Program-made: the position numbers and the translations under genes | Notes under the pieces: model-generated | What the model saw: only the letters and a program-made list of their open reading frames with translations | The model's database searches: none | Told to the model about the DNA's origin: nothing | Shown here: in pieces, positions 18,901 through 21,900 of the stretch | How the letters are laid out: each line of letters begins with the position of its first letter | Numbering within the stretch: the first letter of the stretch is position 1 | Assembly: GCA_916610825.1 (NCBI GenBank) | Contig: OU744451.1 | Location: 24,254,349-24,318,348, forward strand | Length of the DNA: 64,000 nucleotides | Reading direction: 5' to 3' | From: Haliclystus octoradiatus | Taxonomy: Eukaryota > Cnidaria > Staurozoa > Stauromedusae > Haliclystidae

Positions 18901-21900
18901 TTATCGATTTATACAGCTATGCCTGAGGGTGGTTTGTTGCATTCTTTGTGTAGCAAATATGTTGGATGAAAGAGGGACGACATATTCCTATAATGTAGTT
19001 GATATTATTTACTATAATAAAATTTATGTTTATCTAATAGCAGATAATATAGGGCTCTATGTCTTCATTTGACAGAGCGGTAAATAATAATAATATATGG
19101 TGAAAGAGTCAAAGAATACAAATTCTTTACTGTTACTCAAGTTTCACGCATTTCACAGCGATCTTCAGACAGATTTTTTACTCAAAAAAGTAAAAAAAAA
19201 GTAAAAAGAGTAAAAAATCTGTCTGAAGATCGCTGTGAAATGCGTGAAACTTGAGTAACAGTAAAGAATGTGTATTCTTTGACTCTTTCGCCATATATTA
19301 TTATTATATATATATAAATATATACAACCCTGATCAATGCCACATGCATGCGTGTATCGAAAAATAATATTTCACACAAAGAAAATTCTTTACTTGATTA
19401 TAACAATTAAACAACTAGATTGAAATTCTAACAAACCTCAAATAAGCGAGAAAAACTTGGACAGAATTGTAATGCTCGATCATCATTTGGCAAAGTGTAA
19501 TTTAAATTCACATTATTTAACGACGCACTTGGTAAGGAATCGATTAATAAACGCAGTGAAGTTGTTGTGAGCTCATTACCAGCAATATTCAACGTTGTGA
19601 GACTTTTACAAACTGTTGAAAGAAAGAGATAATTTTTACTATCTAAAAACACAAAAGTCAAAAGTGTTCTGCATTGAGCAGAAAACATTTTGCATAAATC
19701 ACAAAATATACTAACCTCGTAAACTTGACCTTAATTCTGTTTCAGCAGAAAACAGTTTTGCTTCTAACTCCACATTTTCAATGTTAAGTACTTGCAAATG
19801 ATTGGCCAATGTTTTGATAATTACAGAGAGGCTTGTACCAGTATGTTGGTGTGAGAAATCATTAAATGCCAATGAGAGACTATGCCATGATGGTACAAAC
19901 GATGGATTCTGAAAACAACCAAACAAACTAAAATAATTATCATCATCATTTATGGCGAAGTTTTTATTTTTCCATTTTACAACAAAGAAGGAAAGCTATT
20001 AGCTTTTTTCAACAAGCGTGGTTGGTTTGTTGGTTAGTTGGTTTTCAATGAGCTTGGTCGGCTAGTCGGTTAGTTGGTTTTCAATAAGCGTAGTTGGTTA
20101 GTTGGTTAGTTGGTTTTCAATAAGCGTGGTTGGTTACTTGGTTAATTGGTTTTCAACAAGCGTGGTTGGTTAGTTGGTTAATTGATTTTCAACAAGAGTG
20201 GTTGGTTAGTTGGTTAGCTGGTTTTCAATAATCGTCGTTGGTTAGTTGGTTTGTTGGTTTTCAATAAGCGTGGTTGGTTACTTGGTTAATTGGTTTTCAA
20301 CAAGCGTGGTTGGTTTGTTGGTTAGTTGGTTTTCAATGAGCGTGGTTGGTTAGTTGGTTAGTTGGTTTTCAATAAGCGTGGCTGGTTTGTTGGTTAGTTG
20401 GTTTTCAATGAGCGTGGTTGGTTAGTTAGTTTTCAATAAGCGTGACTGGTTAGTTGGTTAATTGATTTTCAACAAGAGTGGTTGGTTAGTTGGTTAGCTG
20501 GTTTTCAATAATCGTGGTTGGTTAGTTGGTTTGTTGGTTTTCAATAAGCGTGGTTGGTTAGTTGGTTAGTTGGTTTTCAATGAGCTTGGTTGGTTAGTTG
20601 GTTTTCAATAAGCGTAGTTGGTTAGTTGGTTAGTTGGTTTTCAATGAGCGTGGTTGGTTAGTTGGTTAGTTGGTTTTCAATGAGCGTGGCTGGTTAGTTG
20701 GTTAATTGGTTTTCAACAAGCGTGGTTGGTTTGTTGGTTAGTCGGTTTTCAATGAGCGTGGTTGGTTAGTGTTCTGTTAAGCAAAGACGCCGTAATTTAT
20801 GTAAATATATTGATACTGTTCAATGTTCATGGATTTCACAGTTCATGACAAATTTGCTTAGATTCATAATTCTTACCGGATGATCTTGAATTTTTCTGCA
20901 GGAATTCTCTAATGATTTTGCTAATTCCGAAAGGCCATTTGTTGTCATGCCAACGCAATCAAGAGAAACAGAAGAGAGTAATGGAATTGAACATAATGCC
21001 GAAGTAAGATAACTCATACCAATATCACCTGAAATTCAATATGTGAACAAATCAGAATCAGTCCTGTGAAAAATAGCTTAAAGTAGCTTAGTGTTAAAGT
21101 CCTCGCATGGTTATGTTATGTATGCTACTTCAATTGTAGAAATGCTTATATATGACTCCTGTTCAGTTCTTTGTTTCCATGTGCGCAATTCATTAACGCT
21201 ACATGAATATCTTTTTGTGGGTTCATGAACGTGAAATTGCTCAAACGTTCATGAACGTGAAATTGCTCAAACGTTCATGAATATGAAATTGCTCAAACGT
21301 TCATAAACGTGAAATTGCTCAAACATTCATGAACGTGAAATTGCTCAAACGTCCATGAACGTGAAATTGCTCAAACGTTCATGAACGTGAAATTGCTCAA
21401 ACGTTCATGAATATGAAATTGCTCAAACGTTCATGAACGTGAAATTGCTCAAACGTTCATGAACGTGAAATTGCTCAAACGTTCATGAACGTGAAATTGC
21501 TCAAAAGTTTATGAACACGAAATTGTGCAAAACCTGATGAACTCATTAACTTTTTCCAGTGGTTCCTTCAACAATTAAAGAATTGCAGCTGTACACTGCT
21601 GACGTCATCTTTGAAGCAATTGCATGTTTGTTTGAGGTACGCAACGTTAGCTGATATGATTAATTGTTTAACAATCTACAAGCAAATTTTGCACATAGTT
21701 ATTAATTATTTGTAGATTCATAGTACTTACCAAAGTTATTCCTTGATAAATTTATGGACACAAGTGTTGCACAATGCCGAACTGCTTCAGCAAAGGATTC
21801 CAATTGTAAACCATCCATAGATGCATCAGTCAGATCAATACTCACAAGTTGAACATTACTGAGCTGGGTTAGAATGCTGGAATTAAAATCTAAAATTGAA

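Follow-up and report, generated by a model that had tools for sequence, protein, structure and literature searches.

The 64,000-nucleotide stretch of Haliclystus octoradiatus DNA analysed here (the window) contains two foldback insertions without an open reading frame, each with a hammerhead motif in both of its arms. Such foldbacks were probably inserted by the machinery of Penelope-like elements as two joined cDNAs of the 5′ end of an element RNA, and a minority of these cDNAs would have been copied from RNA that the ribozyme had cut. The ribozyme is of a known kind and so is the element; it is the arrangement for which no description was found. Among the matches listed in a search of the open-access literature (title, start of the abstract, passages), neither hammerhead foldbacks lacking an ORF nor arms ending at the scissile bond were seen.

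The original prediction placed a hammerhead layout at 19219–19261 and 58523–58562, and it is present exactly there (Table 1). The plus-strand letters of the first motif are CTGT-CTGAAGA-TCGC..GCGT-GAAAC-TTGA-GTA-ACAG and those of the second are TTGT-CTGATGA-CCGT..GCAT-GAAAC-CATTA-GTA-ACAA, so that the predicted stem I versions, CTGT/ACAG and TTGT/ACAA, are read at the two loci. Stem II of the second motif has a C.A mismatch and a U.G. Mirror copies of both motifs lie on the minus strand. The arms of the family A foldback, 19081–19183 and 19208–19310, are 97% complementary and 24 nt apart, and those of the family B locus, 58462–58506 and 58521–58565, are 82% complementary. Another inverted repeat, with 77-nt arms that are 86% complementary and 40 nt between them, lies just left of the family B copy at 58100–58293.

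Table 1. Positions in the window of the two foldbacks, their parts and the related reading-frame fragment.
Feature	Positions	Strand	Remark
Whole family A foldback	19018..19310	- (sense strand minus)	Left boundary = tail end (site 2), within a few bases, AT-rich flank
Hammerhead motif, minimal type I, tail-carrying arm, family A	19130..19172	-	Predicted scissile bond 19134/19133
Hammerhead motif, minimal type I, short arm, family A	19219..19261	+	Predicted scissile bond 19257/19258 (GTA^ACAG)
Tail-arm leader, 13 nt, family A	19173..19185	-	Putative RNA 5′ end of the template
Centre filler, 22 nt, family A	19186..19207	.	Without match in the other 22 family A copies examined
Short-arm leader, 11 nt, family A	19208..19218	+	
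Tail stem-loop (GCTCTG...GAGC), family A	19054..19078	-	In one arm only
Short arm 3′ of the ribozyme, family A	19262..19310	+	Ends at AT-rich site 1
Family B foldback copy	58462..58660	+	Outer part of short arm missing
Hammerhead motif, short arm, family B	58465..58504	-	
Hammerhead motif, tail arm, family B	58523..58562	+	Stem II partly broken
Centre (leaders and filler), family B	58505..58522	.	
Tail stem-loop, family B	58606..58627	+	
Related retroelement reading-frame fragment	61661..62113	-	Cys-rich and YIG motifs by eye; relatives ribozyme-bearing, none detected in the window copy

Paired changes in the stems had been predicted from the two loci, and they recur in a larger set of 20 variants from the same genome, drawn from loci fetched by DNA similarity. 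The core CUGANGA ... GAAA ... UH is intact at the two window loci and in 19 of 20 variants, the exception being G3, with U for C3. The versions of stem I include CTGT/ACAG, TTGT/ACAA, CCGT/ACGG and TTGC/GCAA, and those of stem II include CGC/GCG, TGC/GCA and CGT/ACG. Changes on both sides are seen in six of the nine tested pairs, as compared to 0 to 2 in the slid controls; 14 of 500 shuffles reached the same number. The share of paired cells is 88.9% vs. 23–63% with the partner strand slid, a percentage that is biased, since 16 of the variants came from a descriptor that demands pairing and 4 from a looser one. Further pair types number 9, below the shuffled mean of 10.9. Covariation is seen in stems I and II; the stem III pair included in the test never changes and is hence uninformative. 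Counts of core and non-core substitutions were rejected as a sign of selection, being biased because the copies had been found through the motif.

The U.U at the base of stem II had been taken as either an unusual variant or a sign of decay. The 10.1–11.1 position is paired in 6 of the 20 variants (3 G-C, 3 U-A), 13 carry U.U and one has C.U. The U.U also occurs in the variant beside the open 736-aa frame of a partner element (L080), and in the axolotl HHR_Amex2 it is described at the same place in the passages of PMC7229834 used here. Because 13 of the 20 variants carry it, the U.U is a stable variant and a normal state of this ribozyme; the first reading stands, and the pair is not simply decay.

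A strict motif descriptor accepts three of the four window motifs (58523 fails) and gives 0 matches in 100 Markov-simulated windows. The covariance model built from the 20 variants finds all four motifs at 48–54 bits, all four being, by their letters, in its training set. It also reports a strong match at 10612–10651 and a weak one at 39248–39289, both on the minus strand. The former resembles a hammerhead of the TTGC/GCAA type, stands alone and has a single change in the core (CTTATGA), and the model found no mirror partner for it; the latter is hammerhead-like and decayed (22.8 bits). A covariance search with the known hammerhead families turned out negative: no Rfam hammerhead family reached its gathering threshold in the window, and with E relaxed to 10 none appeared in the surroundings of either locus. 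The strongest Rfam matches, all below gathering, were miRNA precursor models, a kind that fits long hairpins. The very short stem III and the U.U may explain the missing Rfam match. The isolated motifs fold no better than shuffles (z −0.75 and −1.23) and the hammerhead fold was not obtained; single pseudo-LTR RNAs were also no better than shuffles (z −1.26, 0.62 and −0.01). From thermodynamics alone, the hammerhead claim would not be supported. Folding of the entire foldback gives a single hairpin (−159.9 kcal/mol), and for this reason a full-length foldback transcript probably has its ribozyme masked; a protective role of this folding was considered.

The suggested link to Penelope-like elements was supported, as the same ribozyme accompanies Penelope-like reading frames, close to their ends, elsewhere in the genome (262 Mb, 33 contigs). 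The genes of the window look animal-like. Relatives of the 61661–62113 frame gave 2252 first-look candidates, 150 of which were scored. In 19 of the 20 partner-protein loci fetched a hammerhead lies ~240 nt past the matched stretch, the exception being the window copy. The element at L080 has a motif at 1203, an open frame at 1330–3537 (736 aa) and a second motif at 3684, the two motifs being 2481 bases apart. The partner protein shows, by eye, the motifs SFMTLDIESFYP and YRDDG, a Cys-rich stretch and IY...YIG...R. Its comparison with Pfam, NCBIfam and PDB sequences yielded no convincing match. Since the profile libraries did not recognise the protein, the Penelope label is based on motifs read by eye and on element anatomy, not on a profile match. 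The Penelope-like traits observed are pseudo-LTRs with a hammerhead, a tail, copies in inverted orientation and insertion into AT-rich targets, with target duplications that are clear in only 4 of 19 family A copies. The protein of L080 1330–3537 and its relatives may form a branch outside the coverage of Pfam, NCBIfam and PDB.

The 3′ side of the ribozyme in the partner elements holds an AAT repeat (site 1) or the stem-loop tail. Foldback arms, together with their leaders of 11–13 nt, are matched by the pseudo-LTRs of three partner lineages. The foldbacks labelled A, X and Y each match the pseudo-LTR of a different partner element, and therefore foldbacks arose from several lineages. As judged from these sequences, a foldback is a head-to-head pair of Penelope-like pseudo-LTR ends. 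Some long partner elements (L077, L078, L079, L087 and L090) are themselves head to head with shorter copies that are 91–100% identical (~0.8 to 1.5 kb). Very long AT-rich trinucleotide repeats are present in the window at 6203–7243, 37172–37960 and 62225–62959; similar repeats occur 3′ of several Penelope-like copies and may derive from those copies.

Foldbacks of family A are abundant (1788 first-look candidates, 40 scored). The motif pairs less than 150 nt apart comprise 64 distinct head-to-head pairs, 45 of which belong to families A and B, i.e., the queries, together with 12 converging pairs and 2 same-strand pairs (both minus-minus and of different families; 0 plus-plus). A tail is present in one arm in 56 of the 64 head-to-head pairs, none was detected in 8, and two are seen in 0. 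The target flanks of family A share stretches of 13–15 nt with more than two letters in 4 of 19 copies; the other 15 share two-letter AT repeats only, so that duplications are ambiguous there. Four family B rows (L043, L048, L050 and L055) have common flanks of 10–13 nt by eye, and the scripted flank pattern matched no family B copy. A MITE of a DNA transposon was rejected: the outer ends are not mutual inverted repeats beyond site 1, because one arm has the tail.

In the family A consensus, the tail arm equals the short arm from the leader to site 1, save for the first leader base. The per-site divergence of the family A arms is 0.2–0.7% (20 copies) and that of family B 0.8–4.0% (17 copies), family B being older. 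The centres of all 23 family A copies examined differ, one filler being empty. In part, the fillers are pieced together from arm-end sequence: of 301 filler 7-mers, 79 are found in arm ends, where 500 simulations averaged 11.5 and never exceeded 25. Leaders measure 12–14 nt in most arms (tail arms, 18 of 23; short arms, 20 of 23), and they end around ATTGAGT, where the partner element runs on into TTTTTC. There are 37 junctions of this presumed-start type genome-wide (exact arms, no more than 12 nt between), with 29 distinct centres. A G stands before ATTGAGT in 16 of 25 arms, 6 of those 16 lying within copied CAG patches; copying of the cap could explain it. Because the arms are near-identical while all 23 centres differ, we infer that each copy was made afresh, the RNA beginning around ATTGAGT and each insertion joining two cDNAs anew.

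Arm ends fall into two clusters at putative RNA 5′ ends, one ~13 nt upstream of the ribozyme and the other, less frequent, exactly at the scissile bond. Four loci (L092, L095, L096 and L098) have the usual outer layout and arms that end at ACAG, the first bases past the predicted scissile bond, and L093 has two foldbacks of this type with no tail in view. With exact arms and up to 12 nt between them, the genome-wide pattern finds scissile-bond junctions at 6 loci, two of which are neighbouring duplicates. An overlapping interval beside the scissile bond gives 14 junctions, 7 of them sharing one centre and possibly descending from one event. The control just upstream, inside the ribozyme, gives 0 junctions, the control further upstream 3 (one with family A sequence) and the downstream control 2; all reversed-pattern controls give 0. 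The scissile-type foldbacks L093 and L094 (C4:13718331 and 13718588) have the same centre, are 257 bases apart and are likely a local duplication.

A search with the tail only was chosen so as not to select by the 5′ end. It gave 1782 first-look candidates, and the 40 scored copies, the query's own locus (L128) among them, are all 100% identical and come from contigs C1, C2 and C4. Relative to the scissile bond, 18 of the 40 tail arms extend past −55, and 15 of them go as far as the 84-nt reference does; 12 others end at −55 to −46, 7 at −45 to −3, 2 at 0 and 1 at +6; two (L108 and L113) are in truth longer copies broken at an A-run. Short arms were found in 20 cases; 13 of them end at −55 to −46 and 3 at −1 or 0, a single one stops at +3, and the last 3 end further along. 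Between −45 and +10, leaving aside L128 and L108, 3 of 11 ends are exactly at 0, where 0.20 would be expected (Poisson P about 1e-3). Two scissile loci of the tail sample, L099 and L125, are also in the pattern counts, so that the two lines of evidence overlap. In family B, 4 junctions lie in the scissile region, only 2 of them exact on both arms, vs. 2 in the control, and the support from this family is weak. Resting on family A, the cluster at the scissile bond reads as a genomic footprint of self-cleavage in vivo.

These data can be put together as follows. The element RNA would start ~13 nt upstream of the minimal type I hammerhead, which places the ribozyme at the very 5′ end; the upstream arm end would be the transcription start. 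Reverse transcription would start internally, at site 1 (~50 nt downstream of the scissile bond) or at site 2 (~115 nt), the cDNA from site 2 including the tail stem-loop, and synthesis would run up to the 5′ end of the RNA. Two separate short cDNAs, one on each side of the cut AT-rich target, would be joined head to head via microhomology or filler, leaving the foldback and a short target duplication. Arms would keep the whole ribozyme because most templates are uncleaved RNAs, and a minority would stop at the scissile bond because their templates had already been cut, the ribozyme thereby making the second class of ends. A more specific claim, to which we give slightly less than even credence, is that the genome records in vivo hammerhead cleavage at the 5′ end of an mRNA, with capped uncut and ribozyme-cut RNAs both serving as templates.

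Among the alternatives, the foldback might multiply as a finished palindromic unit in a SINE- or MITE-like manner, with the ribozyme as a passenger and the centre altered later by palindrome instability. The high copy number, the constant one-tail layout and the recurrence of some centres (CTTTACAGTAAAG is common to 7 loci, and the 37 presumed-start junctions have only 29 distinct centres) agree with this explanation. We nevertheless consider it unlikely, since all 23 family A centres differ while the arms are >99% like their consensus, both arms mostly end at the same place although decay of the centre should erode them unevenly, and there are no fixed differences between the arms before site 1. 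Self-priming on an antisense transcript, which the cited part of PMC3846280 proposes for the head-to-head Penelope copies of Adineta vaga, has head-to-head palindromes as its expected product. An arm copied from the other arm should have an equal outer end, yet no pair has two tails, and the likeness of two arms within a copy barely exceeds that between copies (0.916 vs. 0.913 in family A, 0.862 vs. 0.845 in family B); self-priming is therefore quite improbable.

A further alternative concerns only the ends at the scissile bond. Reverse transcriptases can be stopped by structured RNA, and the ends could be such stops at the ribozyme structure, or a second transcription start, and not the result of self-cleavage. 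The weakness of the family B evidence leaves some room for this explanation. The 3′ strand of stem I would be met first, so a stop is expected before ACAG is copied, yet the ends include ACAG, and we rate stops or a second start as rather doubtful. That the motifs are a functionless chance resemblance seems scarcely credible. They are short, lie in AT-rich DNA, match no Rfam family and in isolation fold no better than shuffles, but the paired stem changes, the lack of matches in the simulated windows and the conservation near partner reading frames largely refute chance, decay of single copies being possible. Insertion by Penelope-like machinery, with two cDNAs joined, remains the reading that we prefer.

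Several known systems are close to the one described here. In PAc of Anolis, according to the passages of PMC11167929 used here, the hammerhead is located at the pseudo-LTR/ORF junction, its cleavage is seen only with protein, the start of reverse transcription is internal to the template and close to the beginning of the ORF, and both target strands are cut and extended; no reads begin or end at the presumptive cleavage site. The Haliclystus ribozyme resembles the minimal hammerheads of Penelope-like elements (cited in PMC7229834; PAc, PMC11167929) in being of type I and in lying in the pseudo-LTR near the ORF start, and PAc also shares the internal downstream start of reverse transcription, with a tail, and the AT-rich targets. 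Unlike in PAc, where no reads begin or end there, genomic arms end on the scissile bond here, and unlike in the known Penelope-like minimal hammerheads, stem II often has a U.U at its base (13 of 20 variants). The Penelope of Adineta vaga, as presented in the relevant sections of PMC3846280, likewise has head-to-head pseudo-LTRs, a tail on one of them and target duplications, which are 8–10 bp in Adineta. Its copy number is very low, whereas the copies here are numerous, ORF-less and ribozyme-bearing; the main text of that paper does not mention the hammerhead.

The foldbacks share with animal retrozymes their non-autonomous nature and hammerheads of type I, and the corresponding passages of PMC7229834 name Penelope-like elements as a strong candidate for the retrozyme helper. 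Retrozymes are described there as tandem repeats of 170–400 bp with canonical type I hammerheads, in contrast to the minimal ribozyme and head-to-head pairs found here. An animal retrozyme was accordingly rejected, given the minimal ribozyme and the presence of only 2 same-strand neighbours within 150 nt, of different families, against 64 head-to-head and 12 converging pairs.

In the parts considered of PMC7229834, PMC11167929 and PMC3846280, the role of the hammerhead in Penelope-like elements is treated as unsolved, as is the manner of their head-to-head insertion, and the genomic evidence presented here bears on both questions. With about 1,780 first-look candidates (40 scored), the family A foldbacks are short and near-identical and have readable junctions, which makes both questions testable from genomes alone: arm ends would map the 5′ ends of the RNA, and junction fillers would show how two cDNAs are joined. 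The joining pattern of these sister insertions suggests that the ribozyme cuts in living cells.
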